Of a stretch of 64,000 nucleotides of DNA, positions 36,089 to 51,516 are shown in pieces; position 1 is the stretch's first letter; each line of letters opens with the position of its first letter. Under the pieces are notes generated by a model. It did not search any database. It saw only the letters and a program-made list of their open reading frames with translations, and had not been told where the DNA came from. Source of the DNA: Bacteroidales bacterium (lineage in GTDB: Bacteria > Bacteroidota > Bacteroidia > Bacteroidales > UBA932); contig JAFTBU010000049.1 in the NCBI GenBank assembly GCA_017455065.1, positions 62,001 to 126,000 of the forward strand, given 5' to 3'. The translations under genes were made by a program, and so were the position numbers.

Positions 36089-37291
36089 ATGCTTCATATA
36101 TCCGAAAGGAGTGCCGCAATGCCGGCCTCTGCCATAAGGAAACTGGTGCCCTTCGCCGATGCCGCCAAGGCTGAAGGCGTGAAGGTTTATCACCTCAATG
36201 TAGGCGCCCCCGACATCAAGTCCCCCGATTGTGCCTTCGATGCCGTCGTGGACAAGTGCAAGGGTCTCCACCACCTGTCCTACACCAATTCCGCAGGTCT
36301 CATCGAGCTGCGCGAGGCTATGGTGGAGAAATACTACAAGAAGGTGGGCATCGACATCAGCGTGGGTGACCTGCTGATCGACGTGGCCGGCAGCGAAGCT
36401 TTCGCCGTGGCCATGCAGATCGCCGCCGGACCCGGCGAGGAGATCATAGTGATAGAGCCTTTCTACACCAATTACCAGACCTTCGCCTTCCTCAACGGAA
36501 TCACTCTCAAGGCTGTCCATACCGACATTGAGAGCGGCTTCAAGGTACCGGCTATCAGTGAATTCGAAAAGATACTCACCCCCAGGACCAGGGCCATACT
36601 CATCAGCAATCCCTGCAATCCTTCGGGCAAGCTCTTCACCCGCTCCGAGATGCTGGAGCTCGGCAAATTCTGCCGCGAACACGACCTGTTCCTCATCAGC
36701 GACGAAGTCTATCGCGAGTTCTGCTACACCGACGAGCCGTATTTCTCGGCCATGAACATCCCCGGCTGCGAACAGAATGTAATCCTGGTGGATTCGGTGT
36801 CGAAGAGGTACAATCTCTGCGGCGCGCGCATAGGCTGCATAGTCTCCCGCAACAAGGACGTGATGGCCGCCGCGATGAAATTCGCCCAGTCCCGTCTCTG
36901 CCCTCCCGTACTCGGACAGTGGGCTGCAATGGGTGCGCTGGACACGCCCTGGAGCTATTTCGACGATGTCAAGGCTGAATACATACGCCGCCGCGACTGC
37001 GCAGTGGAGATGCTCAACGCCATACCCGGAGTGTTCGCGCCCAAGCCCATGGGAGCCTTCTACACCATCGCCCGCCTCCCGGTCGACAATGCAGAGAGCT
37101 TTGCCAAATGGATGCTGACGGAATTCCGCGTGGATCACCATACCGTAATGGTCACCCCCGCCACCTCCTTCTACCGCACTCCTGGCATAGTGAACCAGGT
37201 CCGCATCGCCTACGTCCTGGAGGTCCCCCAGCTCCGCACAGCCATGGACATCCTCGCCCAAGGCCTCGCCGCCTATCCCGGACGGAGGTGA
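36089..37291 (+). CDS. Aspartate aminotransferase-like PLP enzyme
   Basis: Class I aminotransferase of 400 residues. The motifs are LNVGAPDIKSPD at the N-terminus, SNPCNPSG, the SDEVYREFCY aspartate/tyrosine segment and the PLP lysine in DSVSKRYNLCGARIG. The C-terminus has VRIAYVLE where the substrate arginine is expected. Position at the end of thrA-thrB-thrC-asd suggests it makes aspartate from oxaloacetate and glutamate for the threonine pathway. Exact substrate preference cannot be read off. It is the last gene before the 460-base non-coding block. Confidence 0.86.
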   Translation: MLHISERSAAMPASAIRKLVPFADAAKAEGVKVYHLNVGAPDIKSPDCAFDAVVDKCKGLHHLSYTNSAGLIELREAMVEKYYKKVGIDISVGDLLIDVAGSEAFAVAMQIAAGPGEEIIVIEPFYTNYQTFAFLNGITLKAVHTDIESGFKVPAISEFEKILTPRTRAILISNPCNPSGKLFTRSEMLELGKFCREHDLFLISDEVYREFCYTDEPYFSAMNIPGCEQNVILVDSVSKRYNLCGARIGCIVSRNKDVMAAAMKFAQSRLCPPVLGQWAAMGALDTPWSYFDDVKAEYIRRRDCAVEMLNAIPGVFAPKPMGAFYTIARLPVDNAESFAKWMLTEFRVDHHTVMVTPATSFYRTPGIVNQVRIAYVLEVPQLRTAMDILAQGLAAYPGRR

Positions 37292-37377
37292 TACTCCGCT
37301 GAAGAGACATACACCCCGCCATCGAATTTCACATTCAGGTCGCGTCGCCTTTTGAATTTCGGGTTGGCAGTTTCGAC

Positions 37378-37441
37378 ATTCGTCAGCCCGACGGACACCC
37401 TCTGAAGGGTCGTAGAAGCCATAGTCGGTGGGCTGACGAAT
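37378..37441. repeat. 12-bp perfect inverted repeat with inner hairpins
   Basis: ATTCGTCAGCCC (37378-37389) is the exact reverse complement of 37430-37441. Inside it, CCGAC (37388-37392) can pair with GTCGG (37424-37428), and ACCCT (37397-37401) pairs with AGGGT (37406-37410) across a CTGA loop. The nested pairing suggests a folded RNA or cruciform rather than chance. Confidence 0.75.
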
Positions 37442-37454
37442 TTCATAACTGGCC

Positions 37455-37488
37455 CTCGCCGCCGCAGTATACGCGATGCGGCGGCGAG
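37455..37488. repeat. 12-bp perfect GC-rich hairpin
   Basis: CTCGCCGCCGCA (37455-37466) and 37477-37488 are perfect reverse complements around a 10-base loop. It could be a terminator for the thrA-to-aminotransferase operon, but no T-run follows, only CTATGTTT, so it may instead be part of the larger structured block. Confidence 0.7.
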
Positions 37489-37548
37489 CTATGTTTAAGT
37501 GCTCTCCTCGCCCGCCCGTTGCTGTCGACCGCGGGGGCTGGCTCCGGT

Positions 37549-37583
37549 GCTCCTACCGTCCATAAATCGGGGACGGTGGGAGC
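37549..37583. repeat. 13-bp inverted repeat hairpin
   Basis: GCTCCTACCGTCC (37549-37561) pairs with 37571-37583 over all 13 positions, one of them a G-T wobble, around a 9-base AT-rich loop. It is the first of two hairpins in the GC-rich half of the block. Confidence 0.75.
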
Positions 37584-37595
37584 GAAAAGGGCGGA

Positions 37596-37720
37596 AGTGC
37601 AGGCGGCTCGGAGCAGGGACCCGTGCCACCCTCGGCACCGTAAGAGGGGGGACCGTGAGCGGCAGCGAACGGTGGGGTCGAGCGAAGCGAGACGGTCCCC
37701 TGCCCCGAGCCGCCTGCACT
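37596..37720. repeat. Long imperfect inverted repeat of about 26 bp
   Basis: The left arm 37596-37621 begins AGTGCAGGCGGCTCGG, and the right arm 37694-37720 ends with its exact reverse complement. The arms then differ by one A/G change and one extra base but pair on to GGGACC/GGTCCC. The roughly 70-base interior has smaller helices: GTGCC with GGCAC, and ACCGT with ACGGT. A long stem with branched interior is typical of structured RNAs and of small palindromic mobile elements. Confidence 0.78.
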
Positions 37721-37753
37721 CCCATCGCCGCTCACACTAGAAGTAATGCGGGA

Positions 37754-37787
37754 TTTGTTTGGAAATACGGATTTTTTGCTATATTTG
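37754..37787 (+). promoter_or_regulatory. Putative promoter of the his leader and operon
   Basis: The -7 box TATATTTG (37780-37787) is a full match to TAnnTTTG. Upstream are two overlapping -33 candidates in TTTGTTTGG: TTTG at 37754-37757 (22-base spacer) or at 37758-37761 (18-base spacer). The start of transcription should fall only a few bases before the leader ATG at 37796. Confidence 0.65.
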
Positions 37788-37795
37788 TGAAAGTT

Positions 37796-37855
37796 ATGAT
37801 TACGAGCACCAACACTTTCCGTCATCACCGCCGCCATCTGTCAGATAGAGGGTAG
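37796..37855 (+). CDS. hisL: Histidine leader peptide (attenuator peptide)
   Basis: A 19-residue reading frame, MITSTNTFRHHRRHLSDRG followed by TAG, lies between a promoter and an intrinsic terminator ahead of hisG. Three of 19 codons are His (37823-37828 and 37835-37837), set among Arg codons in the order Arg-His-His-Arg-Arg-His. The stop codon (37853-37855) lies inside the left strand of the antiterminator helix. By analogy with enterobacterial his attenuation, a ribosome short of charged tRNA-His would stall on these codons and leave that strand free. I infer function from arrangement; no homologue was searched. Confidence 0.75.
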   Translation: MITSTNTFRHHRRHLSDRG

Positions 37856-37901
37856 GCCGGAGAGTCGTGGATCATGACTTGGAAGTATAGCGAGGCTTAC
37901 C
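37851..37901 (+). promoter_or_regulatory. Antiterminator helix of the his attenuator
   Basis: GGTAGGCC (37851-37858) can pair with GGCTTACC (37894-37901) over eight positions, one a G-U wobble. The right strand is the 5' arm of the downstream terminator, so the two structures exclude each other. The intervening RNA can form a 7-bp hairpin (37863-37869 with 37873-37879), which would bring the two strands together. A ribosome at the leader stop codon would cover the left strand. Confidence 0.65.
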
Positions 37902-37925
37902 GTGATGCGGCAAGCCTCTTTTTTT
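37892..37925 (+). terminator. Intrinsic terminator of the his attenuator
   Basis: GAGGCTT (37892-37898) pairs with AAGCCTC (37912-37918). After an A-C mismatch the stem continues as CCG (37900-37902) with CGG (37908-37910), closing on the loop TGATG. Seven T follow (37919-37925). This is a complete Rho-independent terminator placed 48 bases before hisG and after the leader peptide, the expected place for an attenuator. Confidence 0.85.
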
Positions 37926-37954
37926 AGTGTATTACAGGTTTTAGTGTATTACAG
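37922..37954 (+). repeat. Tandem duplication, 16-base copies with 17-base period
   Basis: TTTTAGTGTATTACAG occurs at 37922-37937 and again, identically, at 37939-37954, separated by one G. It begins inside the T-run of the attenuator and ends 19 bases before hisG. It may be a recent slippage duplication or a binding site; it contains no gene. Confidence 0.9.
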
Positions 37955-37973
37955 AATCAAAGCAAAAACAGAT

Positions 37974-38825
37974 ATGATAAGGATAGCCATACAGTCAAAA
38001 GGCAGGCTCAACGAAGAAAGCACCGCCCTGCTCGGAGAGATCGGCATCAATGTCGATGACTCCAAGCGCAAATTCCTCTCCCGCTCCGACAACTTCCCCC
38101 TCGAAGTCCTCTACCTCAGGGACGACGACATCCCCCAGGTGGTGGCCAACGGCACCGCCGCCCTGGGCATAGTCGGCCTCAACGAAGTCGAGGAAAAAGG
38201 CTTCAAGGTGGACATTGTCAAGAAGCTGGGCTTCGGAGGCTGCCGCATCTCCCTCGCCATCCCCAAGAGTGAGGAATACGACGGCCCCGCCTATTTCAAC
38301 GGCAAGCGCATCGCCACCTCCTACCCGGCGATACTCCGCCGCTACCTCGACAAAGAAGGCATCAAGGCCGAAATCGAAGTCATCACCGGCTCGGTGGAGA
38401 TAGCTCCTTCGGCAGGCATAGCCGACGCCATCTTCGACATCGTCTCCTCCGGCGGCACCCTGGTGTCCAACGGTCTGAAAGAGGTGGAGAAGGTCTTTTT
38501 CTCCGAGGCCGTACTGATCTCCTCCGGGAAACTCAGCGCCGGAGAGCAGGCCATCCTCGACGAAATGCTTTTCCGCATCGAATCGGCACTGGGAAGCCGA
38601 AAGAAGAAATATCTGCTGATGAACCTGCCGCAGGCATCCGTGGAGCAGGCCGTGAAGATACTCCCCGCCATGAGGAGCCCTACCATCATGCCCCTCGCCG
38701 CCGAAGGCTGGTGCTCCATGCACTCGGTCGTCGATGAAAAGGACCTTTGGGAAAAGATACGCCAGCTCAAGGAAATAGGCGCCGAAGGCATACTGGTACT
38801 CAACCTCGACAAGATAATCCCCTAG
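37974..38825 (+). CDS. hisG: ATP phosphoribosyltransferase, long form
   Basis: First histidine step: couples PRPP to ATP. The start MIRIAIQSKGRLNEES at 37974 is the normal N-terminus; a longer in-frame start at 37902 would run through the terminator and is rejected. The 283 residues are the HisG-long type with a C-terminal ACT-like domain (from about residue 210), which needs no HisZ and allows histidine feedback. Family segments are VANGTAALGIVGLNEV and ITGSVEIAPSAGIADAIFDIVSSGGTL. It is the first gene of the his operon and sits directly behind the attenuator. Confidence 0.96.
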   Translation: MIRIAIQSKGRLNEESTALLGEIGINVDDSKRKFLSRSDNFPLEVLYLRDDDIPQVVANGTAALGIVGLNEVEEKGFKVDIVKKLGFGGCRISLAIPKSEEYDGPAYFNGKRIATSYPAILRRYLDKEGIKAEIEVITGSVEIAPSAGIADAIFDIVSSGGTLVSNGLKEVEKVFFSEAVLISSGKLSAGEQAILDEMLFRIESALGSRKKKYLLMNLPQASVEQAVKILPAMRSPTIMPLAAEGWCSMHSVVDEKDLWEKIRQLKEIGAEGILVLNLDKIIP

Positions 38826-38828
38826 TCC

Positions 38829-40097
38829 ATGAAGATTTACGACAATCCTCCCATAGAGCTCTGGGCAGAGCTTTGCGCCAGGCCGGTGCAGTCCGACGAA
38901 GGGCTTTCAGCACGCGTGGGCGCCATACTCGAAAGGGTGCGCCTGGGCGGGGACGGGGCCCTGAGGGAACTCGCCCTGGAAATCGAAGGCAAGGCTCCAG
39001 CCTCGCTGGAATTCTCCGCCGCCGAGATCGAAGCCGCCGCCGGCAAGGTCAGCCCCGAAGTGAAGGCTGCCGTAAAGGAGGCCGCCGCCAATATCGAAGC
39101 TTTCCACAAGGCTCAGCGCCCTTCCGAGGTGGTGGTGGAAACCGCTCCCGGAGTGAAATGCATACAGAAGCCCGTCCCCATTGCCAAAGTCGGCCTGTAC
39201 ATCCCTGGAGGCACCGCTCCCCTCTTCTCGACCATACTGATGCTGGCCATACCCGCCCGCATCGCAGGCTGCTCCGAAGTGATACTTTGCACTCCCGCCC
39301 AGTCTCCTGAAGTGCTCTACACCGCATCCTATTGTGGTATCAAGAGGATTTTCAGGGTCGGCGGAGCCCAGGCTGCAGCGGCCATGGCATACGGCACCGC
39401 CACCATCCCCCGCGTGGACAAGATCTTCGGCCCCGGCAACCGCTACGTCACCGCCGCCAAGCAGATGCTCGGCCTCAGCCGGGTGGCTATCGACATGCCG
39501 GCGGGACCTTCCGAAGTGATGGTGATAGCGGACGATGACGCCTCCCCCGCCTTCGTGGCGGCAGACCTGCTTTCGCAGGCGGAGCACGGGATGGACAGCC
39601 AGGTGATGCTGGTCTGCCGCAGCAGCGCCTTCGCAGAGCAGGTGCAGCGGGAGATCGAGCTGCAGACCGCAGCCCTGGACAGGAGCGCCTTCGTGCAGGG
39701 AGCCCTTTCCTGCAGCAGGACAGTCGTCTTCCGGGACAATGACGACGCAGTGGCATTCGCCGAAGCCTATGCCCCCGAGCACCTCATCATCAACACCGCC
39801 CGGCCCTGGGACATCGCCTCCCGCATCACCGCCGCCGGAAGCGTCTTCGTGGGGAGCTATTCTCCCGAAAGCGCCGGCGACTACGCCTCCGGGACCAACC
39901 ACACACTGCCCACCTGCGGCTGGGCCCGCTCTTTCAGCGGGGTCAACATCGACAGCTTCATGCGCAAGATGACCATCCAGGAGCTCTCCCGCGAAGGACT
40001 GCGGGGCCTCTCCGGCACCATAATCTCCATGGCCGAAGCCGAAGGGCTGCAGGCCCATGCAAATGCAGTAAAAGTCAGGCTCGATGAAAGCAAATGA
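38829..40097 (+). CDS. hisD: Histidinol dehydrogenase
   Basis: Zinc- and NAD-dependent two-step oxidation of histidinol to histidine, the last step. The 422 residues show GLYIPGGTAPLFSTILM, DKIFGPGNRYVTAAK, AGPSEVMVIAD and the zinc/active segments SQAEHGMDSQ and SGTNHTLPTCGWAR. It starts 3 bases after hisG and overlaps hisC by 14 bases. Length and motifs are complete. Confidence 0.97.
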   Translation: MKIYDNPPIELWAELCARPVQSDEGLSARVGAILERVRLGGDGALRELALEIEGKAPASLEFSAAEIEAAAGKVSPEVKAAVKEAAANIEAFHKAQRPSEVVVETAPGVKCIQKPVPIAKVGLYIPGGTAPLFSTILMLAIPARIAGCSEVILCTPAQSPEVLYTASYCGIKRIFRVGGAQAAAAMAYGTATIPRVDKIFGPGNRYVTAAKQMLGLSRVAIDMPAGPSEVMVIADDDASPAFVAADLLSQAEHGMDSQVMLVCRSSAFAEQVQREIELQTAALDRSAFVQGALSCSRTVVFRDNDDAVAFAEAYAPEHLIINTARPWDIASRITAAGSVFVGSYSPESAGDYASGTNHTLPTCGWARSFSGVNIDSFMRKMTIQELSREGLRGLSGTIISMAEAEGLQAHANAVKVRLDESK

Positions 40098-41133
40098 TAC
40101 AGAAAGGCTCGTCAGGGCCAACATAAGGGCGCTGTGCCCGTATTCCACCGCCAGGGACGAGTACCAGGGCAGCATAGGCGTGTTCCTGGATGCCAATGAA
40201 AGCCCCTACGACACCGGTTGGAACCGCTACCCCGACCCGCGCCAGCGGGCGCTCAAGGAAAAGATTTCGGCCATCAAGGGAGTACCAGCCGGGAACATCT
40301 TCCTGGGCAACGGCAGCGACGAGGCCATAGACCTGGTGTACAGGATTTTCTGCGAGCCCGGACGGGACAATGCCGTGATGATCGCCCCCAGCTACGGCAT
40401 GTACAAAGTGGCCGCCGACATAAACGACGTGCAGGCCAGGCAGGTGCAGCTCGGAGAGGATTTCAGCCTCGACGGCGAAGCTCTCCTGAAAGAGTGCGAC
40501 TCCCGCACCAAGCTCCTTTTCATCTGCTCGCCCAACAACCCTTCGGCCAACGCCTTCCCCCGGGAGCAGCTCCTGGAGATAGCGGAGCGCTTCCAGGGCA
40601 TGCTGGTGGTGGACGAGGCCTACGCCGATTTCAGTTCCCAGGGCAGCCTTCTGGGGAGCCTGGCGGAACACCCCAACCTCATCATTCTCCAGACCTTCTC
40701 CAAGGCCTGGGGCATGGCCGGCCTGAGACTCGGGATGGCCTTCGCATCAGAGTACGTGATACGCCTGATGTCCATGGTCAAATACCCCTACAACATAAGC
40801 CAGGCCGTCCAGGAGATAGCCCTGAAAGCCCTCTCCAATCCCGGGAACAAGGCAAAGGAACTGGTGGCCCTGAGGGACAAGGCAGCAGAGGGGATGAAAC
40901 GCTTCGCTTTCATCCGCAGGATCTACCCCAGCGACGCCAATTTCCTGCTGGTCAAGGTGGACGACGCCCCTGCCCTTTACAAACACCTTCTCGCCGACGG
41001 CATCATAGTGCGCAACCGCAGCTCCGTGCGGGGCTGCGAGGGCTGCCTTCGCATCACCACCGGCCTGGAAGAGGAGAACAAGGCACTTTTAGCATCACTC
41101 GAAGAATATGAAAAAGGCAATATTCATAGATAG
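40084..41133 (+). CDS. hisC: Histidinol-phosphate aminotransferase
   Basis: PLP fold-type I enzyme converting imidazole-acetol phosphate to histidinol phosphate. The 349 residues include [34 protein letters not shown] and the PLP lysine in [14 protein letters not shown]. Its start lies inside hisD and its end inside hisB (26-base overlap), so translation is tightly coupled. The genome neighbourhood fixes the substrate better than motifs alone. Confidence 0.96.
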
Positions 41134-42166
41134 GGACGGAACAGTCATAGCCGAACCCGCCGACGAGCAGGTGGACTCCCTGGAGAAGCTCGAATTCGTC
41201 CCCGGGGCCATCAGCGGCCTCAGGGCCCTGGTCGGGCTGGGATACGAGCTGGTCATGGTGACCAACCAGGACGGCCTCGGCACCCCGGCTTTCCCCGAGA
41301 AGACCTTCCTGGGGCCCCAGGAGAAGATGCTCCGCACCCTCGAGGGCGAGGGCGTCCGCTTCGATGACATGCTCATCGACAGGAGTTTCCCCGAAGACAA
41401 TTCCCCCTGCCGCAAACCCCGCACCGGGATGCTCGGCAAATATCTCGGCGGCGGATACGACCTCGCCGGAAGTTTCGTCATCGGCGACAGGGATACAGAC
41501 ATGGAACTTGCCCGGAACATGGGCTGCACAGGCCTCAGGATAGGCGAGCTGAGCTGGGACGAGGTGGTGCGCAGGATACGCACCGGGGTGAGGCGCGCCA
41601 CAGTAGCACGCAAGACCGCCGAAACCGACATTTTCATCGAGGCAGACCTGGACGGGCTCGGACAGAGCTCGATAGACACCGGTCTGAAATTCTTCGACCA
41701 CATGCTCTCGCAGCTCCCCCACCACGGAGGCATCTCCCTCATTGTCAAGTGCAAAGGTGACCTGGAAGTGGACGAGCACCACACCATCGAGGATGTCGGC
41801 ATCGCCCTGGGAGAGGCCCTCAGGCAGGCTCTCGGGGACAAGAGAGGGACGGAGCGCTACGGCTTCGCCCTGCCTATGGACGAGAGCCGGGCGATAGTGC
41901 TGCTGGATTTCGGAGGGCGCAGCGAACTGGTCTGGGATGTGGAATTCACCCGCGAATACGTGGGCGACGTCCCCACGGAGATGTTCCGCCATTTCTTCAA
42001 ATCCCTTTCCGATTCCATGAAGGCCAACCTGTACATCCAGGCCCGCGGAGAAAACAACCACCACCTCGCCGAAAGCATCTTCAAGGCTTTCGCCAGGACA
42101 GTCAGGCAGGCTGTCCGCAAGGATGTGTTCAGTTACGACCTGCCTTCAAGCAAAGGAGTGCTATGA
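41108..42166 (+). CDS. hisB: Bifunctional histidinol-phosphatase / imidazoleglycerol-phosphate dehydratase
   Basis: Fused enzyme of 352 residues. The N-terminal HAD phosphatase (1-165) has the nucleophile motif FIDRDGT with Asp8 and Asp10, and [13 protein letters not shown]. The C-terminal dehydratase (from about 165) has the repeated histidine metal motifs [14 protein letters not shown] and [14 protein letters not shown], then [15 protein letters not shown] and [15 protein letters not shown]. The fusion is known in enterobacteria and Bacteroidota. It overlaps hisC by 26 and hisH by 4 bases. Confidence 0.97.
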
Positions 42167-42750
42167 TAGCGATCATCGATTACGACGCAGGCAACATCCA
42201 GTCGGTCGGGAATGCCCTTTCCCGGCTCGGGACGGAATATGTCCTGACCAGCGACCCTGCGGTGCTGGACGGAGCCTCCAAGATCATACTGCCCGGGGTG
42301 GGCAATGCCGCCCACGCCGTGGAGAGTCTCAGGGAAAAAGGCTTGGAGAGCTATGTGAGGAGCCTTCGCAGGCCGGTGCTCGGCATCTGCGTCGGACTCC
42401 AGATCATGTGCCGCCGCTCTGAGGAGGGCGACAGCCGCGGACTCGGCATCTTCGACTGCGACGTGCGGAAATTCGAGCCCGGTCCGGACTGCAAGGTCCC
42501 CCACATGGGATGGAACACCATCTCCAACCTGGAAGGCAAGCTTTTCAAGGACATGAAGGGAGGGTCATGGGTGTATTTCGTGCACTCCTACTACCCCGCC
42601 CTGTGCCCCGACACCGTCGCCACCTGCACCCACGCGGGGGTGATGTTCAGCGCGGCGCTGAGATATGAAAATTTCTACGGCACCCAGTTCCACCCCGAGA
42701 AGAGCGGCGGTGCCGGGGAGAAGATACTCCGTAATTTCCTGGAGCTATGA
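42163..42750 (+). CDS. hisH: Imidazole glycerol phosphate synthase, glutaminase subunit
   Basis: Class I glutamine amidotransferase that delivers ammonia to HisF. The nucleophile cysteine is in GICVGLQIM, and the partner His and Glu are in TQFHPEKSG. The N-terminus [12 protein letters not shown] is typical. The 195 residues are the normal size. ATGA overlaps join it to hisB upstream and hisA downstream. It forms the heterodimer with HisF two genes later. Confidence 0.96.
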
Positions 42751-43475
42751 TAAGGATAATACCGGCGATAGACATCATAGGAGGACGCTGCGTGCGCCTC
42801 TCCAGGGGTGATTATTCGCTCAGCAAGACCTATGAGGGCTCTCCCGTGGAGATGGCCCGCGCCTTTGAAGCCTGCGGCGTGGAAAAGATACACATGGTGG
42901 ACCTGGACGGAGCCAAGGCCGGCCGGCCCTGCAACCTGGATGTCCTCAGACAGGTCGCCGGAAGCGTAAAATGCGGCATAGAATGGGGCGGCGGGATAAG
43001 CAGCTCCGAAGCCCTGGACGCCGTGTTCGAAGCCGGTGCCACCCAGGCCATAGTGGGCAGCGTCGCCGCCATGCAGCCGGAGCTTTTCCGCAGCTGGCTC
43101 AGGACCTACGGTCCCGGAAGGATCATACTCGGAGCCGATGTCAGAGACTCGAAAGTGGCCGTCAAAGGCTGGCTGCAGGACAGCGGAGTGCTGATAGACG
43201 GATTGATACAGGGCTTCCTGCCCGACGGGATCAGCGAAGTGATATGCACCGACATCAGCCGGGACGGCATGCTCCAGGGCCCTTCGGACGAACTGTACCT
43301 GAGGCTGCAGGAGGCCTATCCCGGGATACTCTTCACCGTGAGCGGAGGCATCTCCGGACCCGGGGACATACTCAGGCTCGAGGGCGAAGGCCTGCGCAGC
43401 GTCATAGTCGGCAAGGCGATATACGAAGGAAAGATAACATTGGAACAGATAAGGCAATGGTCGCAAAACGCATAA
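42747..43475 (+). CDS. hisA: ProFAR isomerase (phosphoribosylformimino-AICAR-P isomerase)
   Basis: TIM-barrel Amadori isomerase of histidine synthesis, 242 residues. The catalytic aspartates are expected in PAIDIIGGRCVRL at the N-terminus and in CTDISRDGML in the second half; GGGI and VSGGI phosphate-binding turns are present. It overlaps hisF by 19 bases. The internal half-barrel similarity to HisF is visible in the paired DL-DGA and DI-DGM segments. Confidence 0.95.
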   Translation: MIRIIPAIDIIGGRCVRLSRGDYSLSKTYEGSPVEMARAFEACGVEKIHMVDLDGAKAGRPCNLDVLRQVAGSVKCGIEWGGGISSSEALDAVFEAGATQAIVGSVAAMQPELFRSWLRTYGPGRIILGADVRDSKVAVKGWLQDSGVLIDGLIQGFLPDGISEVICTDISRDGMLQGPSDELYLRLQEAYPGILFTVSGGISGPGDILRLEGEGLRSVIVGKAIYEGKITLEQIRQWSQNA

Positions 43476-44212
43476 TACCCTGCCTCGACGTCAAGGACGG
43501 CGTCGTGGTCAAAGGCATCAACTTCCTGGGACTCAAGGAGGTGGGCGACGCGGTGGACATGGGGGTCAGGTACGCCCGGGAAGGCGCCGACGAATTGGTC
43601 TACCTGGACATCAGCGCCACCCGCGAAGGACGCAACACCTTCGCCGCCCTCGTGGAGAAGATAGCCGCAGGCATTGACATACCCTTCACCGTCGGCGGGG
43701 GCATAGGCTCCGTGGACGACGCTTCGCGGCTGCTGGACGCCGGTGCGGACAAGGTCAGCATCAACTCCGCCGCCATACGGGATCCGGAGCTCATCGGCAG
43801 GATAGCGTCGAAATACGGCAGCCAGTTCGTCGTGGTCGCCATCGATGCCAAATGTGTGGACGGGACCTGGAAGGCCACCACCCACGGCGGCAGCGTGATG
43901 ACGGACAAGGAATTGTTCAGCTGGGCCATGGAAGCACAGCAGAGAGGCGCCGGAGAGATACTTTTCACCTCCATGGACCACGACGGCACCAAGGGCGGCT
44001 ACGCCTGCGAGGTGTATGAGAGGCTTTCGGAGCTGCTGTCCATCCCGGTGATCGCCTCCGGCGGCGCCGGCAGCATAGCCGACATTGCCAAGGTCCTCAC
44101 CGAAGGCAAGGCCGACGCGGCCCTGGCCGCCAGCATCTTCCACTACGGGGAGATCGGGATACAGGAGCTCAAGGAGGCTCTCAGGAAGGAAAACATAAAC
44201 GTCAGGATATGA
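43457..44212 (+). CDS. hisF: Imidazole glycerol phosphate synthase, cyclase subunit
   Basis: TIM-barrel synthase/cyclase that uses ammonia from HisH to give imidazole glycerol phosphate and AICAR. The start MVAKRIIPCLDVKDGVVVKG at 43457 gives 251 residues, the usual length; the frame is also open further upstream, but that part is hisA read out of frame. The two catalytic aspartates are in PCLDVKDG and FTSMDHDGTKGGY. It overlaps hisA by 19 and hisI by 4 bases. Confidence 0.97.
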   Translation: MVAKRIIPCLDVKDGVVVKGINFLGLKEVGDAVDMGVRYAREGADELVYLDISATREGRNTFAALVEKIAAGIDIPFTVGGGIGSVDDASRLLDAGADKVSINSAAIRDPELIGRIASKYGSQFVVVAIDAKCVDGTWKATTHGGSVMTDKELFSWAMEAQQRGAGEILFTSMDHDGTKGGYACEVYERLSELLSIPVIASGGAGSIADIAKVLTEGKADAALAASIFHYGEIGIQELKEALRKENINVRI

Positions 44213-44808
44213 AATTCGAAGATTTCAAATTAGAAAAGAACGCCGACGGCCTGCTGCCGGTGATAATCCAGGACTCCCGCACCCTGAAGGTGCTTATGCT
44301 GGGTTACATGAACCGCGAGGCCTTCGAGAAGACCGCCGCCGAAGGCCGGGTGACCTTCTGGTCCCGCAGCCGTGGCTGTCTCTGGACCAAAGGCGAGACC
44401 AGCGGCCATTTCCTCACCGTGGTGGAAATGTACCCCGACTGCGATGCGGACACCCTGCTCATAAAGGCAGTCCCGGACGGTCCCACCTGCCACAGGGGCA
44501 CCCGCAGCTGCTTCGACACCCCCGATGAGGAAGGCTTCCTGGGAGAGCTCCAGGAGGTGATACGCAAAAGGCACGAACAGATGCCTGAAGGTTCCTACAC
44601 CACCAGGCTCTTCATCAAGGGGCCGAAGTGCATAGCCAAGAAAGTGGGCGAAGAAGCGGCCGAGACTGTGATCGAAGCCGTGGACGGCAACAGGGACCGC
44701 TACATCTACGAGGTCTCGGACCTGATCTACCACCTGATGGTGCTCAGCGAGCAGATGGGCTGCACCCTCCAGGATTTTGAGAAAGAACTTTCGCTCAGAC
44801 ACCGTTAG
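44209..44808 (+). CDS. hisI: Bifunctional phosphoribosyl-AMP cyclohydrolase / phosphoribosyl-ATP pyrophosphatase
   Basis: Fused HisIE of 199 residues carrying steps 2 and 3 of the pathway. The cyclohydrolase (1-110) has MLGYMNREAFEKT, FWSRSRGCLWTKGETSGHF and the metal cysteines in YPDCDADTLL and GPTCHRG. The pyrophosphatase (from about 113) has KVGEEAAETVIEA and EVSDLIYHLMVL. It is the last his gene; with it the operon covers every enzyme from PRPP to histidine. The next gene starts 48 bases on, after a new promoter box. Confidence 0.97.
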   Translation: MKFEDFKLEKNADGLLPVIIQDSRTLKVLMLGYMNREAFEKTAAEGRVTFWSRSRGCLWTKGETSGHFLTVVEMYPDCDADTLLIKAVPDGPTCHRGTRSCFDTPDEEGFLGELQEVIRKRHEQMPEGSYTTRLFIKGPKCIAKKVGEEAAETVIEAVDGNRDRYIYEVSDLIYHLMVLSEQMGCTLQDFEKELSLRHR

Positions 44809-44823
44809 GAGCGAATAATTTAT

Positions 44824-44831
44824 TATATTTG
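44824..44831 (+). promoter_or_regulatory. Putative -7 box (TATATTTG) of the arginine genes
   Basis: A full TAnnTTTG match sits in the 48-base gap between hisI and the GNAT gene, 25 bases before the GNAT ATG. A TTTG -33 box is not seen at the right distance. The arginine genes may thus have their own promoter while also being reached by read-through from the his operon. Confidence 0.5.
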
Positions 44832-44856: not shown

Positions 44857-45426
44857 ATGGGCATCAATGTAATGGTGGCGGACTCAAGCCACACCTGTTT
44901 CGCAGAGCAGATCTGCGAGGAGATCTATCAGTCATCACTCGAGCGCAAGACCGGTATCGCCAAGCGTACGCCGGAGTATATCTGCGAGAAGATGCTGGCC
45001 GGGAAGGCCGTGATAGCAGTGACCGACGAAGGGGAATTCGCCGGCTTTTCCTACATAGAGTCCTGGGGAGGCAAGAGTTTCGTGGCCAACTCCGGACTGA
45101 TCGTGGCTCACAAGTTCAGGGGCATGGGCATCGCCAAGCGTATCAAGGAACAGACTTTCAGGCTCTCCCGCAAGCTCTTCCCCGACGCCAAGATCTTCTC
45201 CATCACCACAGGCGCCGCGGTGATGAAGATGAACTATGAGTTCGGCTTCAGGCCCGTTCCCTACACGGAGCTCACCGACGACCCCGAATTCTGGAAGGGC
45301 TGCGAAGGCTGCCGCCATTTCGACATCCTCCAGAGCCATGACTACAAGATGTGCATCTGCACGGGTCTGCTTTACGATCCCAAAGAGCACCTCGAGATAC
45401 ATCATCCCGACGAAAAAGAAGACTGA
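44857..45426 (+). CDS. GNAT acyltransferase, candidate first enzyme of arginine synthesis
   Basis: A 189-residue GNAT-fold protein. The acyl-CoA loop is AHKFRGMGIAKRI (residues 84-96), and FEFGF-type turns follow. It ends with four conserved-looking cysteines: Cys149 and Cys152 (CEGC), Cys166 and Cys168 (CIC), a possible metal site. It starts the arginine gene run, and no other N-acylglutamate synthase (ArgA or ArgJ) is present. It probably transfers an acyl group to glutamate, and the Ser90 carbamoyltransferase downstream suggests succinyl. It has no amino-acid-kinase domain like E. coli ArgA. The function is inferred from position. Confidence 0.7.
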   Translation: MGINVMVADSSHTCFAEQICEEIYQSSLERKTGIAKRTPEYICEKMLAGKAVIAVTDEGEFAGFSYIESWGGKSFVANSGLIVAHKFRGMGIAKRIKEQTFRLSRKLFPDAKIFSITTGAAVMKMNYEFGFRPVPYTELTDDPEFWKGCEGCRHFDILQSHDYKMCICTGLLYDPKEHLEIHHPDEKED

Positions 45427-45431
45427 GACAT

Positions 45432-46640
45432 ATGGAAAAGAAGAAAGTTGTAGTGGCATTCAGCGGCGGACTCGACACGTCCTACACCGTGATGTACCTC
45501 GCCCGTGAGATGGGCTACGAGGTGCACGCAGTCTGCGCCGACACCGGCGGTTTCAGTCCCGCTCAGCTGAAGACCAATGAAGAGAACGCCTACAAGCTGG
45601 GCGCCACCAAGTACGTCACCCTCGACGTGACCCGCGAGTATTACGACAAGAGCCTCAAATACATGGTCTGGGGAAATGTGCTCCGCAACGGCACCTACCC
45701 CATTTCGGTCTCCTCAGAAAGGATTTTCCAGGGCATGGCCATAGCCCGCTACGCCAAATCCATAGGCGCGGCAGCCATAGCCCACGGATCCACCGGGGCC
45801 GGCAACGACCAGGTGAGATTTGACATGACCTTCCTGGTGATGTGCCCCGAAATGGAGATCATCACCCTAACCCGCGACCGCAACCTCAGCCGCAAGGAAG
45901 AAGTGGACTACCTCAACGCCCATGGTTTCCACGCCGATTTCACCAAGCTCAAATATTCCTACAATGTCGGCATCTGGGGCACCTCCATCTGCGGAGGCGA
46001 AATCCTGGATTCGACCCAGGGCCTTCCCGAGTCAGCCTACCTCAAGCAGGTCAGCGCCTCCGGGAACGAGATCCTGAGCCTGGGCTTCGAAAAGGGCGAG
46101 CTCTGCTCTGTCAACGGCAAGGCATATGAAGACAAGATCGCGGCCATCCAGGCCGTGGAAGAAACAGGCGCCCGCTACGGCATAGGCCGTGACATGCACG
46201 TGGGCGACACCATCATAGGCATCAAGGGCAGGGTCGGTTTCGAAGCCGCCGCCCCGATGCTCATAATCGGCGCCCACAAATTCCTGGAGAAATTCACCCT
46301 GTCCAAGTGGCAGCAGTACTGGAAAGACCAGGTGGCCAACTGGTACGGCATGTTCCTTCACGAGAGCCAGTATCTGGAGCCCGTGATGCGCGACATCGAA
46401 GCCATGCTCGAGAGCAGCCAGCGCAATGTCAACGGCACCGTCACCCTGGAGCTCCGTCCCTACGGTTTCTCCACCGTGGGCGTGGATTCCCCCGACGACC
46501 TCGTCAAGAACAAACTCGGCGAATACGGAGAAGGCGCCAAAGGCTGGACATCCGAGGAAGCCAAGGGCTTCATAAAAGTGACTTCCACCGCACTGCGGGC
46601 CTATTATCTCAATCATCCGGAGGAGCTTCCCGATGATTAG
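45432..46640 (+). CDS. argG: Argininosuccinate synthase
   Basis: ATP-dependent ligation of citrulline and aspartate. The start MEKKKVVVAFSGGLDTSYT at 45432 gives 402 residues and places the PP-loop SGGLDTS at the N-terminus; a longer open frame from 45351 overlaps the GNAT gene and is rejected. Other signatures are AHGSTGAGNDQVRFD and the NVGIWGTSICGGE segment. It follows the GNAT gene by 5 bases and overlaps argC by 8. The order GNAT-argG-argC-argD is common in Bacteroidota. Confidence 0.96.
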   Translation: MEKKKVVVAFSGGLDTSYTVMYLAREMGYEVHAVCADTGGFSPAQLKTNEENAYKLGATKYVTLDVTREYYDKSLKYMVWGNVLRNGTYPISVSSERIFQGMAIARYAKSIGAAAIAHGSTGAGNDQVRFDMTFLVMCPEMEIITLTRDRNLSRKEEVDYLNAHGFHADFTKLKYSYNVGIWGTSICGGEILDSTQGLPESAYLKQVSASGNEILSLGFEKGELCSVNGKAYEDKIAAIQAVEETGARYGIGRDMHVGDTIIGIKGRVGFEAAAPMLIIGAHKFLEKFTLSKWQQYWKDQVANWYGMFLHESQYLEPVMRDIEAMLESSQRNVNGTVTLELRPYGFSTVGVDSPDDLVKNKLGEYGEGAKGWTSEEAKGFIKVTSTALRAYYLNHPEELPDD

Positions 46641-47577
46641 GGCCGGCATCATAGGAGGCGCCGGATACACGGCGGGAGAGCTCATCAGGATACTGCTGAA
46701 CCATCCCGGAGTGCAGATCGCTTTCGTACTTTCCGAGAGCAGCGCCGGCAAATACCTGTGGGAGGTGCACCAGGGCATCTTCGGCGACACCGACCTGAAA
46801 TTCAGCGACAGTTTCGACCTCGATGCCGTGGATGTACTCTTCCTCTGCTCGGGACATGGCAAGAGCGCCTCGTTCTGGCAGGAGCATCCCCTTCCCTCGA
46901 CTCTCAAAGTCGTCGACCTCGCCCAGGACTACAGGGACGAGCACGACGGCTATGTGTACGGCCTGCCGGAATGGCAGCGGGAGAAGATTAAGGGAGCCCG
47001 CCTGATTGCCAATCCCGGCTGCTTCGCCACCGCCATCCAGCTGGGGCTGCTTCCCCTGGCCGCCGCGGGTCTGCTCCGCTCCGAAGCGGATGTCACCGCC
47101 ATCACCGGAAGCACCGGCGCCGGGGTCAAGCCCGGGGCCACCACCCATTTCAGCTGGCGCAATGACAATGTCTCCACCTACAAGGTGTTCTCCCACCAGC
47201 ATCTGCTGGAGATACGGCGCAACCTCGGCTGGGAAAAGATCAATTTCGTCCCCATGAGAGGCGATTTCTCCAGAGGCATATTCGCCAGCATCACCACCGA
47301 CTGCAGCCTTGAGGAAGGCGAGGCGGTGAAGCTCTTTGAAGACTACTACTCCGGTGCGGCATTCACCTTCGTGAGCCCCTCGCCGGTGGACCTCAAGGAC
47401 GTGGTCAACACCAACAAGGCCCTCGTCCACGTGGAGAAGCACGACGGCAAACTCGTCATCTCCACCGTCATCGACAACCTCCTGAAAGGCGCGTCCGGAC
47501 AGGCGGTGCAGAACATGAACCTCATTTTCGGGTTTCCGGAAGACTGCGGTCTCCGCCTGAAAGCATCGGCATTCTAG
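46633..47577 (+). CDS. argC: N-acyl-gamma-glutamyl-phosphate reductase
   Basis: NADPH-dependent reduction of acylglutamyl phosphate to the semialdehyde. The 314 residues show GGAGYTAGELIRILL (cofactor loop), the active cysteine in IANPGCFATAIQLGLLPL, and HQHLLEI toward the end. The acyl group is probably succinyl if the pathway follows the Bacteroides fragilis type; the reductase motifs themselves do not decide. It overlaps argG by 8 bases and precedes argD by 3. Confidence 0.95.
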   Translation: MIRAGIIGGAGYTAGELIRILLNHPGVQIAFVLSESSAGKYLWEVHQGIFGDTDLKFSDSFDLDAVDVLFLCSGHGKSASFWQEHPLPSTLKVVDLAQDYRDEHDGYVYGLPEWQREKIKGARLIANPGCFATAIQLGLLPLAAAGLLRSEADVTAITGSTGAGVKPGATTHFSWRNDNVSTYKVFSHQHLLEIRRNLGWEKINFVPMRGDFSRGIFASITTDCSLEEGEAVKLFEDYYSGAAFTFVSPSPVDLKDVVNTNKALVHVEKHDGKLVISTVIDNLLKGASGQAVQNMNLIFGFPEDCGLRLKASAF

Positions 47578-47580
47578 ATT

Positions 47581-48705
47581 ATGGAACTTTTCGACGTATA
47601 CAGCCTCTTCGACGTAGTCCCGGTAAAGGCCAGGGGCTGCAGGGTCTGGGATGAAGAGGGCCGGGAGTATCTCGACCTCTACGGCGGCCATGCCGTCATC
47701 TCCATAGGCCACAGCCACCCCGACTACATAAAGGCCGTCTCGGACCAGCTGTCCCGCATAGGATTCTACTCCAACAGCGTCATCAATCCGCTCCAGAGCG
47801 AGCTGGCGCACAGGCTGGGCGAAATCAGCGGTTACGGCGACTACAGCCTGTTCCTCGACAACAGCGGCGCCGAATCCAACGAAAACGCCGCCAAGCTGGC
47901 ATCCTTCCACACCGGCAAGGACCGCATCATCGCCTTCCGCAGGAGTTTCCACGGGCGCACTTCGGGCGCCGTCGCCATGACCGACAACCCCTCCATTGTC
48001 TCCCCCTTCAACTCGCACCACAAGGTCAGCTTCTGCGACCTGGAGGATGCGGCCGCGGTGGAGGAGATCCTGAAGGGCGGTGACGTGGCGGGAGTCATCA
48101 TCGAAGGCATCCAGGGCTGCGGCGGCATACACGTCCCTTCCGCCGGCTTCTTCCAGGAGCTGGAGCGGCTCTGCCGCCGGTACGGCGCCGTCCTGATTGC
48201 CGACGAGGTGCAGAGCGGTTACGGCCGCAGCGGCAAATTCTTCGCCCACCAGTGGGCGGGAGTGCATCCCGGCATCATCACCCTCGGCAAGGGCATTGCC
48301 AACGGCATCCCTTGCGGAGGCATACTCATATCCCCTGAATTCCAGGCCCGCAAGGGCATGCTCGGCACCACCTTCGGAGGCAATTACATCGCCTGCGCCG
48401 GTGCCATAGCAGTACTCGACATCATAGAGAGGGAAGGCCTGATGGCCAACGCCCTGGCGGTCGGAGACTACATCAAAGAAGCCCTCCCCAAGAGCGGGCG
48501 CATCAAGGAGGTCCGCGGCAAGGGCTTGATGCTCGGCATAGAGTTCAATGAGAACGTCGCTCCCCTGCGCAAGGCACTCCTCTACGACAAACACATCTTC
48601 ACCGGCGTCGCCGGACAGAACATGATACGTCTCCTCGCGCCTCTCTGCCTCAGCAAGGCGGAGGCAGACCGCTTCCTCACCGCATTCAAAGAAGTCCTCG
48701 CATGA
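47581..48705 (+). CDS. argD: N-acylornithine aminotransferase
   Basis: Class III PLP aminotransferase making acylornithine from the semialdehyde and glutamate. The 374 residues contain LDLYGGHAVISIGHSHP, SGAESNENAAKLA, the DEVQSGYGRSG aspartate segment and the PLP lysine in ITLGKGIANGIPCGG. It shares ATGA with the carbamoyltransferase. Substrate acyl type is inferred from the neighbour. Confidence 0.95.
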   Translation: MELFDVYSLFDVVPVKARGCRVWDEEGREYLDLYGGHAVISIGHSHPDYIKAVSDQLSRIGFYSNSVINPLQSELAHRLGEISGYGDYSLFLDNSGAESNENAAKLASFHTGKDRIIAFRRSFHGRTSGAVAMTDNPSIVSPFNSHHKVSFCDLEDAAAVEEILKGGDVAGVIIEGIQGCGGIHVPSAGFFQELERLCRRYGAVLIADEVQSGYGRSGKFFAHQWAGVHPGIITLGKGIANGIPCGGILISPEFQARKGMLGTTFGGNYIACAGAIAVLDIIEREGLMANALAVGDYIKEALPKSGRIKEVRGKGLMLGIEFNENVAPLRKALLYDKHIFTGVAGQNMIRLLAPLCLSKAEADRFLTAFKEVLA

Positions 48706-49658
48706 AATCATTCTTTCACGTCAGCGACATAGGCGACCTCGGCGCAGCGCTCGAGGAAGCCAGGCAGGTCAAGGCCACGCCCTACGCCTGGAAGAGCCTG
48801 GGCGAAAACAAGACCATCATGCTGGTGTTTTTCAACAGCAGCCTCCGCACCCGTCTGAGCAGCCAGAAAGCGGCCCTGAACCTCGGCATGAGCCCTATAG
48901 TGCTCAACATAGGCCAGGACAGCTGGAAGCTCGAGACCGAGATGGGAGTGGTCATGGACGGAGACAAATCCGAGCATCTCAGGGAGGCCATCCCGGTGAT
49001 GGCCAGCTACTGCGACATCATAGGCGTACGGTCCTTCGCCGGCCTCAAGGACAGGGAATACGACTACTCGGAGACCGTGCTGAACCAGTTCATCCAGTAC
49101 AGCGGGAAGCCCGTGATCAGTCTGGAATCCGCCACGGTGCATCCCTGCCAGGCCTTCGCCGACCTGATCACCATCGAAGAATACAAACGCAAAACCCGCC
49201 CCAAGGTCGTCATGACCTGGGCACCACATCCCAGGGCCCTGCCCCAGGCGGTGCCCAATTCGTTCGCCGAGTGGATGAACGCCGCCGATGTGGATTTCGT
49301 CATCACCCATCCCCGCGGCTACGAGCTCGACCCCCGTTTCGTCGGGGACGCAAAGGTGGAATACGACCAGATGAAGGCCCTGGAGGGCGCGGATTTCGTG
49401 TATGCCAAGAACTGGAGCTGCCCCGGAGTCTGCGGACCCTACGGAGAGATACTGAGCAAGGATATGTCCTGGACTGTGGACGCGGCCCACATGGCGGTGA
49501 CCGACAATGCATTCTTCATGCACTGTCTGCCCGTCAGGCGCAACATGATAGTCTCCGACGAAGTCATCGACGCGCCCACGAGCCTGGTCATCCCGGAGGC
49601 GGCCAACCGTGCAGTCTCCGCCCAGGTGGTCATGAAACGCATGCTTGAAAGTTTATGA
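48702..49658 (+). CDS. argF': N-succinylornithine carbamoyltransferase (SOTCase type)
   Basis: Transfers carbamoyl phosphate to N-succinylornithine. The 318 residues match the Bacteroides fragilis enzyme in length and layout. The carbamoyl-phosphate loop is NSSLRTR (45-51), and HPCQAFADL and the HCLPVRRN segment follow. The residue that sets acyl specificity, Pro90 in B. fragilis and Glu92 in the N-acetylornithine enzyme of Xanthomonas, is Ser90 here (codon 48969-48971, in GDKSEHL). Ser is one of the substitutions known to switch the acetyl enzyme to succinyl use. It is coupled to argD and argB by 4-base overlaps. Confidence 0.92.
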   Translation: MKSFFHVSDIGDLGAALEEARQVKATPYAWKSLGENKTIMLVFFNSSLRTRLSSQKAALNLGMSPIVLNIGQDSWKLETEMGVVMDGDKSEHLREAIPVMASYCDIIGVRSFAGLKDREYDYSETVLNQFIQYSGKPVISLESATVHPCQAFADLITIEEYKRKTRPKVVMTWAPHPRALPQAVPNSFAEWMNAADVDFVITHPRGYELDPRFVGDAKVEYDQMKALEGADFVYAKNWSCPGVCGPYGEILSKDMSWTVDAAHMAVTDNAFFMHCLPVRRNMIVSDEVIDAPTSLVIPEAANRAVSAQVVMKRMLESL

Positions 49659-50431
49659 AAGTAGTCAAGATAGGTGGCAATGTAGTGGACAATCCGGAGC
49701 TGCTCGAGCGCTTCTGCACGGATTTCGCGGCCCTTCCCGGTCCCAAGTGCCTGGTGCACGGAGGCGGGGTGATGGCCAGCGGCATCCAGAAGGCACTCGG
49801 ACAGGAGCCTGTCAAGATCGAGGGCCGCAGGGTCACCGATGAGGACACCCTCCGCGTGGTGACCATGGTGTACGCAGGCTGGTGCAACAAGCACATCACA
49901 GCCCTGCTCCAGGCCCGCGGCTGCAATGCCATCGGCCTGTCCGGCTGCGACGGAGGCGTGATCACGGCACCTAAGAGGCCCCCCAGGACCCTTTCCGACG
50001 GAGTCACCCAGGTCGATTACGGCTTCGTGGGGGATGTCACCCCCGCCTGCGTGGACCGCAAGCTGGTGCTGTCCCTCTGCGAGATGGGACTGGTGCCCGT
50101 CTTCAGCGCCATCAACCACGACGGCCTCGGACAGCTGCTCAATACCAATGCCGACACCGTCGCCTGCTCCGTGGCGGCAGCCCTCGGGGGCGAACTGGTG
50201 TACTGCTTCGAAAAGAAGGGGGTGCTGTCGGATATCAATGACGAAAACAGCGTCATACCCCTGATCGACGAAGCCGCTTTCGCATCCTTGAAAGCCGGGG
50301 GCAAGGTGGCCGAAGGCATGATACCCAAGCTTGAAACCGCGTTCTCGGCCCTGAGACATGGAGCCGTCGCGGCCGTGATAAAACATTCCGACGACCTGCT
50401 GAAGGCAGGAGGAACCAGACTGGAGTTATGA
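49655..50431 (+). CDS. argB: N-acylglutamate kinase
   Basis: Amino-acid-kinase fold, 258 residues, phosphorylating N-acyl (probably N-succinyl) glutamate. Seen are KIGGNVVDN at the start, LVHGGGVMASGIQ, the EGRRVTDEDTL substrate segment and NTNADTVACSVAAALGGE. The second glycine loop reads HGGGVMAS rather than HGGGPQI, as in other short ArgB proteins. It lacks the N-terminal helix of hexameric, arginine-sensitive kinases. It overlaps both neighbours by 4 bases. Confidence 0.93.
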   Translation: MKVVKIGGNVVDNPELLERFCTDFAALPGPKCLVHGGGVMASGIQKALGQEPVKIEGRRVTDEDTLRVVTMVYAGWCNKHITALLQARGCNAIGLSGCDGGVITAPKRPPRTLSDGVTQVDYGFVGDVTPACVDRKLVLSLCEMGLVPVFSAINHDGLGQLLNTNADTVACSVAAALGGELVYCFEKKGVLSDINDENSVIPLIDEAAFASLKAGGKVAEGMIPKLETAFSALRHGAVAAVIKHSDDLLKAGGTRLEL

Positions 50432-51516
50432 AGTACGGTGAATATGCAGAGCTTCTGAGGCGGATGGTCCGCGTCCCTTCCCCCTCTTTCGAAGAGGAAG
50501 GGGTGTGCAAAGTCATCAGTTCCGCCCTGGATGGCATGGGCATAGCACACAAGGTAGTTTACGGAAACATCCTCGCCCTGAACCGCCGCTTCGACCCCTC
50601 GCTGAAGACCCTCGCCCTCGACGCCCACATGGACACAGTCCCCCCTGCAGGGAGCTACACCCGGGACCCTTACGATCCGGGCGACGACCCGGATATCATC
50701 TGGGGACTCGGCTCCAATGACGACGGCGGCAGCGTGGTGTCCATGATAGCCGCATTCAGGCATTTCTATGATGAGCCGCTGCCCTTCAACCTGATGCTCA
50801 TATTGTCCCGCGAAGAAGAGAAATCGGGCCCCGACGGCACCGCTCTGCTCTTCGGCTCGGACGGTTATTTCGCCTCGGCGGAGGAATTCCCCATGCCGGA
50901 CTGGGTGATCGTGGGAGAACCCACCGGGATGCGGGCAGCAACTAGCGAAAGGGGGCTGCTGGTGCTCGACGGAGTCGCCTCCGGAGTCAGCGGGCACGCC
51001 GCCAGGGACGAAGGCGTGAACGCATTGTACATTGCCCTGGAAGACATAGAGAAACTGCGCAGCCACCGCTTCACCAGGCACTCCGACACCATGGGAGACG
51101 TCCGTCTCAGCGTCACCCAGATCGAGGCCGGAGTGGCGCACAACGTGATTCCGGACAGCTGCCGTTTCGTGGTGGACATACGGCCCACCGACAGATACAC
51201 CAACGAAGAGATACTCGCTGAGCTGCAGGCGCTGTGCCGCAGCACCCTCACCCCCAGGAACCTGCGCAACCGTTCCTCTTCGACCCCCGCGGGATCGCGC
51301 CTGCTGGAGACCGTGGAAAGGCTGGGATGGGAGACCTTCTCCTCCCCCACCACTTCCGACTGGATAAGGATAGGATGCGAGGCCATCAAGATGGGTCCGG
51401 GCGACTCCGCACGCTCACATCATGCCGACGAGTATCTTAAAGTTTCGGAAATGGTTGAAGCTATCGATAAATTCATTATCTTCATACGATCTTTTTATGG
51501 CGACACTCTGGAATAA
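50428..51516 (+). CDS. argE': M20 family deacylase, probable N-succinylcitrulline desuccinylase
   Basis: Zinc-dependent M20 amidohydrolase of 362 residues. Metal and catalytic residues are seen in ALDAHMDTVPP (His, Asp), GLGSNDDGGS (Asp), SREEEKSG (Glu pair), IVGEPTGM, and the late His in ARSHHADEYL. In the Bacteroidota arginine route the acyl group is removed after carbamoylation, so the expected substrate is N-succinylcitrulline rather than acetylornithine. Position between argB and argH supports this. It ends 20 bases inside argH. Confidence 0.87.
   Translation: MKYGEYAELLRRMVRVPSPSFEEEGVCKVISSALDGMGIAHKVVYGNILALNRRFDPSLKTLALDAHMDTVPPAGSYTRDPYDPGDDPDIIWGLGSNDDGGSVVSMIAAFRHFYDEPLPFNLMLILSREEEKSGPDGTALLFGSDGYFASAEEFPMPDWVIVGEPTGMRAATSERGLLVLDGVASGVSGHAARDEGVNALYIALEDIEKLRSHRFTRHSDTMGDVRLSVTQIEAGVAHNVIPDSCRFVVDIRPTDRYTNEEILAELQALCRSTLTPRNLRNRSSSTPAGSRLLETVERLGWETFSSPTTSDWIRIGCEAIKMGPGDSARSHHADEYLKVSEMVEAIDKFIIFIRSFYGDTLE

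Follow-up and report, generated by a model that had tools for sequence, protein, structure and literature searches.

The leader ahead of hisG in the window, that is, in the whole stretch of 64,000 nucleotides analysed here, probably functions as an attenuator that responds to two amino acids, histidine and arginine, and is tuned to a fused his-arg operon. Judging from sequence comparison and folding models, it is almost certainly a ribosome-mediated attenuator of the his operon. Histidine probably accounts for only half of its specificity: the codon core of the leader peptide is RHHRRH, and the operon includes arginine genes. The parts of the switch, the conserved pairing, the geometry of the model, and the link between core Arg codons and operon fusion were established by comparison or computation. 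The preliminary description of this site mentioned neither the Arg codons of the leader nor the downstream arg genes, and included neither a protector pairing nor an inner hairpin at 37862-37880.

The attenuator upstream of hisG

The window belongs to a genome of 2.1 Mb in 64 contigs, probably from a member of the genus Cryptobacteroides. A Bacteroidota-type promoter was predicted at 37758-37787 (+), with TTTG at 37758-37761, which we take to be the -33 element, and the -7 box TATATTTG at 37780-37787. The -7 consensus used for this call is the one quoted in PMC9723704. Since TANNTTTG occurs 9 times in the window against 8.15 occurrences expected by chance, the argument for the promoter is its position just 5' of the leader ATG, not its rarity. 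The leader ORF, MITSTNTFRHHRRHLSDRG (37796-37855, +), comprises 19 codons, with ATG at 37796 and TAG at 37853-37855. It contains three His codons (37823, 37826, and 37835) and four Arg codons, three of which belong to the core formed by the control codons R9, H10, H11, R12, R13, and H14 (37820-37837). Further downstream is hisG (37974-38825, +), which scores above the cut-off of TIGR00070. The -7 box, the 19-codon leader, its three His codons, and hisG all lie where the preliminary description had put them.

The leader ATG is located 8 nt past the -7 box (37780-37798 in the window), and the leader mRNA may be nearly leaderless and translated as such. Among the relatives with mixed leaders, the ATG lies 7-8 nt past the -7 box, as judged by eye. 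The upstream region at 37593-37723 carries a 32-nt inverted repeat (88%). This repeat is a member of a dispersed family with 36 matches in the genome; three of these fall on the window copy or on its arms.

The antiterminator pairs 37851-37858 (+) with 37894-37901 (+); all eight pairs of this helix, which had been proposed before, are standard. Its 5' strand, delimited by folding, comparison, and modelling, covers the leader stop codon, and TAG at 37853-37855 does lie inside it as described earlier. The strand 37894-37901 is common to the 3' side of the antiterminator and the 5' side of the terminator, and the proposed competition of the two helices for it is visible in the fold as an overlap. 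The intrinsic terminator (37892-37925, +) consists of seven pairs (37892-37898 with 37912-37918) and four further pairs (37900-37903 with 37907-37910), followed by seven T at 37919-37925. The seven-pair stem and the T-run had been recognized correctly, but the further part, given as 3 bp, folds as four pairs. The loop of the antiterminator contains a hairpin of its own (37862-37880, +; 37862-37869 with 37873-37880). A protector pairing (37830-37857, +) is predicted by the minimum free energy fold from 37794, with 37830-37835 bound to 37851-37853 and 37855-37857. Shuffled sequences folded as well in 1 of 200 cases for the terminator, 0 of 200 for the antiterminator segment, and 7 of 200 for the whole leader.

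The effect of ribosome position was calculated with a partition-function model by A-site codon, for RNA made to 37906 and with two ribosome footprints. The probability of the antiterminator, P, was 0.00 for the window RNA without a ribosome; the protector pairing therefore adds a third state to what had been described as a compact two-state switch. P was 0.99-1.00 under both footprints as long as the A site was at one of codons 9-14. For A-site positions ahead of codon 8 (or 7, depending on the footprint) it did not exceed 0.06, and once codon 17 (or 16) was reached it did not exceed 0.03. The permissive stretch, approximately codons 8-15, takes in all six control codons and at most two codons beyond them. 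For RNA made to 37918 the terminator was favoured at equilibrium (P 0.91-0.98), so that antitermination must be kinetic. In such a co-transcriptional setting, the model agrees with the earlier claim that stalling at the His codons frees the antiterminator while a ribosome at the stop codon blocks it. The site has the makeup of a classical attenuator: the leader ORF contains codons for what the operon produces, terminator and antiterminator exclude each other, the stalling geometry works under the kinetic assumption, and a protector is predicted.

The mechanism that we propose is as follows. Transcription would start just 5' of the leader ATG. With both His-tRNA and Arg-tRNA charged, the ribosome would run to the stop codon and cover 37851-37858; the strand 37894-37901 would then join the terminator, and the transcript would end near 37925. 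If either tRNA were short, we infer that the ribosome would wait in vivo at codons 9-14, open the protector, and leave 37851-37858 free. The antiterminator would then form before the 3' side of the terminator is made, and RNA polymerase would read into the genes from hisG to hisIE and on into the arg genes. With no ribosome on the leader, the protector would hold the switch off.

Conservation of the leader and its helices

A hisG match was found in 176 of 400 genomes of the genus; among the 150 of them with a completeness of 90% or more and a contamination of 5% or less, 79 had one. Histidine synthesis seems to be patchy within the genus. The comparison covered 145 hisG loci of the genus; the window is one of these, and most come from the 400-genome sample. 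A His-rich leader was present in 119 of them; the other 26 had no leader by the rule used and were left out of the leader counts. Such a leader was also present in 31 of 51 further loci, mostly Bacteroidales, a set that overlaps the genus. Downstream of 116 of the 119 genus leaders there was a terminator, a count that has no chance control. The antiterminator was better than in base-shuffled sequence (p ≤ 0.05) in 75 of these 116 leaders. Its 5' strand overlapped the stop codon in 58 of the 116, and this arrangement is therefore common but not general.

The helices were aligned for 45 of 79 non-redundant sequences, picked by eye for one stem type, and the counts that follow hold for this subset. 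Paired cells made up 91.1% of the antiterminator and 94.6% of the terminator. The covariation score of the antiterminator was 0.307 against 0.222 in shuffled alignments and at most 0.118 in slid registers; the corresponding values for the terminator were 0.324, 0.201, and at most 0.145. Both scores exceeded those of all 500 shuffles and of every slid register. The numbers of pairs changed on both sides were unremarkable (3 versus 2.2 shuffled in the antiterminator; 4 versus 2.7 in the terminator). Of the 27 double-changed cells of the antiterminator, 26 fell in its two outermost pairs across the family, which are not among the eight pairs of the window; within these eight, nearly all changes were one-sided. 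In other stem types, outside the alignment, both strands change together, as judged by eye. An alignment of related leaders had been suggested as a check in the preliminary description. Its outcome is favourable: the His codons are conserved and both helices score above the shuffles, with the double changes of the antiterminator mostly in outer pairs.

The conservation of the leader and of its pairing indicates that his attenuation is general in this group and that the window case is one member of it. The original proposal of ribosome-stalling attenuation 5' of hisG in a Bacteroidota genome is thus supported by both conservation and pairing. The same conservation makes it very improbable that the leader is a product of chance or dead, with transcription starting downstream of 37925.

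The ribosome model was also applied to the other leaders. Among the unfused leaders (those of his operons without adjoining arg genes), permissive positions were held by 440 of 447 His codons, 99 of 148 Arg codons, and 591 of 881 other codons; 8 of the 116 leaders had no permissive codon at all. The model thus does well in locating His codons, but the permissive stretch is often broad, and for most leaders the model lacks sharpness. Without a ribosome, P was below 0.5 in 74 of the 116 leaders, so that a protector that keeps the switch off in the absence of translation is not general by this model.

Arginine codons and the fused his-arg operon

The genes that follow hisG are hisD, hisC, hisB, hisH, hisA, hisF, and hisIE (ORFs at 38829-44808, +). 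hisD and hisIE score above NCBIfam cut-offs; the names of the other five are our assumption, guided by gene order. The end of hisIE at 44808 is separated by a 48-nt gap from the start, at 44857, of a gene on the same strand (44857-45426, +), the first of the arg cluster, which we take to encode an acetyltransferase-like protein and call gnat. Neither Pfam nor NCBIfam gave a match for this gene at E ≤ 0.001. It adjoins argG or argC in many relatives and is possibly a lineage-specific N-acetyltransferase of arginine synthesis. The cluster continues with ORFs for argG, argC, argD, N-acetylornithine carbamoyltransferase (in the argF position), argB, an argE-like gene of the M20 peptidase family, and argH (45432-52816, +). 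Scores of argC, the carbamoyltransferase, argB, and argH are above the NCBIfam curated cut-offs, while argG and argD are named from their best NCBIfam matches, which are below these cut-offs. Pfam detected the synthase domains of argG and the M20 family in the argE-like gene. The last ORF (52819-56031, +) is, we presume, a carB-like gene for the large subunit of carbamoyl phosphate synthase.

Among the 145 loci, the his-arg junction was seen directly in the window (G000), G122, and G427, although the acetyltransferase match of G427 is split into two parts and its argG is cut off by the contig end. In G411 the junction lies on a contig separate from that with hisG and the leader. The leader of G379 is the same as that of G122, and its contig stops short of the junction; argG was not found in this genome. 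Altogether, 98 of the 145 loci were seen to be unfused, and linkage was undecided in 42, including the hisG locus of G411 and G379. In G068 and G227, the acetyltransferase gene is located 2.2 and 2.4 kb downstream, respectively, and the leaders are of the His type. Loci L243, L244, L245, L053, and L058 have the acetyltransferase gene and argG in divergent orientation upstream of hisG, a neighbourhood that could give rise to a fusion on the same strand.

The leader code follows this gene content. The core strings of the mixed leaders are RHHRRH (G000), RRHHRR (G122 and G379), RRHHR (G411), and RRHHH (G427); all four fused genomes have 2-4 core Arg codons beside 2-3 His codons. The 85 directly seen unfused loci with a leader have no core Arg (44 loci) or one (41 loci). 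Two or more core Arg codons thus occur in 4 of 4 fused against 0 of 85 unfused loci (Fisher p = 4e-7, a value that ignores kinship; G379 is left out, and unfused means directly seen loci only). They occur in 2 of the 114 other leaders of the genus, and the string RRH is confined, among the 119 leaders, to the four fused genomes and G379. In the five mixed leaders, the ribosome model found all 12 His codons permissive, along with 18 of the 23 Arg codons; the other codons were permissive in 24 of 52 cases. The window has the two features expected of a two-amino-acid leader: its permissive stretch contains His as well as Arg codons, and both his and arg genes follow the leader.

These counts bear on the explanation that the leader is an ordinary His-only attenuator with a decayed His run, in which the Arg codons have no sensing role. 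Each step from CAC or CAT to CGC or CGT is a single transition, three His codons are still within the permissive stretch, and in unfused leaders the His run is often flanked by one Arg, as the 41 of 85 loci illustrate. Moreover, the two other leaders with two core Arg codons, HHHRR in G326 and RHHHHR in G283, are found among the linkage-undecided loci. Both genomes have the acetyltransferase gene on another contig with the arg element, an RNA element described below, upstream of it; they were therefore judged to be non-fused and are counter-examples to a strict rule. Decay is nevertheless an unlikely, if reasonable, explanation, because it does not account for the distribution of core Arg codons between fused and unfused loci. 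The fused leaders, which form three groups, have little other peptide sequence in common, yet Arg and His are adjacent in all of them.

The evidence tips somewhat in favour of a his leader that was recoded from poly-His to His-Arg when the arg genes joined, once or up to three times, and so took over arginine control. A quickly built tree from 132 concatenations of his proteins requires three changes of the fused label when G379 is counted as fused. A single clade was not rejected for the four fused genomes (p-AU 0.591) or for all five (p-AU 0.156), so that one ancient fusion is possible. We therefore make no claim that the fusions arose independently. If there was one ancient fusion, the mixed code would have persisted as the remainder of the peptide diverged. 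Treated as three independent pairs, the association has p = 0.25.

The Arg codons might alternatively serve RNA pairing: the protector strand is GCCGCC at 37830-37835, a segment within Arg codons 12 and 13 plus the first part of codon 14, and pairing is better with CGC than with CAC. We consider this improbable. P without a ribosome is below 0.5 in the 74 of 116 leaders mentioned above, whereas two or more core Arg codons occur in just 7 of 108 leaders on the tree; nearly all of the 74 consequently manage without them.

The survey for an arginine regulator of the ArgR family (PF01316) gave no match in any of 10 genus genomes (56-98% complete); the control search matched in 9 of 14 named genomes, including Bacteroides ihuae. 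Upstream of many unfused arg clusters there is a highly conserved RNA stretch that includes a short ORF and is a candidate for a new type of RNA element associated with arg operons in the genus. It was seen in the upstream region of the arg operon at L186:1260-1500 and also, for example, in L182, L188, L248, and L255. Its short ORF ends at a conserved TAGGAGG; a GGAGG/CCTCC hairpin and the near-invariant GCAATTGACAATCNNGGTTTGTCTTGC are the other parts. A 27-nt piece of the element (GCAATTGACAATCNNGGTTTGTCTTGC) was present in 117 of the 400 genus genomes. In an order-level sample, 1 of 295 genomes had it, and this genome belongs to the same genus. Three copies had no Rfam match at E ≤ 1, and no T-run terminator was seen in the element by eye.

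Of 27 unfused loci, 20 have an Arg/Lys-rich short ORF before the acetyltransferase gene. Among 49 distinct copies of the element, an ORF was found by rule in 42 (in one of these, only a start codon); four of the last six residues are Arg in 20 copies, but only one in 16. The notion that the element is a plain Arg leader peptide was dropped in view of these counts, and the element is not taken as evidence that Arg is sensed.

The element is absent from the five mixed-leader genomes and also from the unfused G068, G394, and G336; the five unfused element-positive genomes in this comparison were chosen because the element had already been seen there. Since it is missing in 283 of 400 genus genomes as well as in these three unfused ones, its absence from fused genomes proves little, and its use as support for a combined His and Arg response was withdrawn. 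With neither the arg element nor a PF01316 match, expression of arg in the fused operons would be governed by the his leader, an internal promoter, or the two together.

A perfect -7 box, TATATTTG, is present at 44824-44831 (+) in the 48-nt gap between hisIE and gnat, so that arg may be transcribed from inside the operon. By eye, -7-like boxes can also be seen in the gaps of G427, G122, and G411. This possible internal promoter is the main weakness of the reading in which the leader controls both pathways. It would fit a cross-pathway control in which both amino acids are sensed but mainly his is controlled, with arg drawing on a promoter of its own. We regard this arrangement as unlikely: by eye, there is no TTTG at the usual spacing upstream of the box in the window and, without a PF01316 match, an internal promoter alone would leave arg with no known regulator. 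The reading that we prefer, shared control by the leader, would make both his and arg responsive to either amino acid.

Comparison with known attenuators

The his attenuators of E. coli and Salmonella have His codons in a short leader, hisL, before hisG, competing terminator and antiterminator structures, and no read-through without translation. The window leader shares the first two features and, in the folding model, the third, but differs in that Arg codons are mixed in, arg genes are part of the operon, and the leader ATG is located 8 nt past a Bacteroidota-type -7 box. The enterobacterial his attenuator was modelled in PMC1183508. An Rfam search of 37000-38500 returned six matches at E ≤ 5, all below the gathering score; none of them was a His leader or a T-box riboswitch.

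At the time of PMC2965389, leader-peptide systems had, according to this source, been shown only in Proteobacteria and Actinobacteria, one atypical case aside; a histidine leader peptide in bacilli is also reported there. For Bacteroidota, strong clues for leader-peptide attenuation before amino acid biosynthesis operons were obtained in Flavobacterium psychrophilum (PMC9723704), and small ORFs reminiscent of leader peptides were described in Bacteroides thetaiotaomicron (PMC7366714). The present attenuator agrees with these transcriptome-derived ones in phylum and kind of mechanism, and this kind is therefore not new for the phylum. It differs in its codon mix, since the parts of both papers considered here name no His/Arg mixed leader. 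Among the literature matches listed (titles and abstract openings, subscription papers being outside the scope), none concerned a His/Arg mixed leader. The mechanism is of a known kind, while the His/Arg mix and its correspondence to operon fusion have no counterpart among these matches.

If our reading is correct, these leaders are a natural record of an attenuator gaining a second amino acid specificity for new genes, across two unrelated pathways. The leader peptide would be a readable code for what the operon senses. As this code shifts with gene content in close relatives, regulation after operon fusion can be tested with natural leader pairs, and HHHH, RHHRRH, RRHHRR, and RRHHH are available for such a comparison. 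The finding may also point to a way of regulating arginine genes in those Bacteroidota that lack an ArgR family match.

Leaders with codons for several amino acids are known from E. coli, namely thrL (Thr and Ile) and ilvL (Ile, Val, and Leu). The amino acids read by each of these have a pathway or precursor in common, whereas His and Arg do not. The window leader resembles thrL and ilvL in being a single peptide with codons for more than one amino acid, but its mix unites unrelated pathways and goes together with the joining of two operons.
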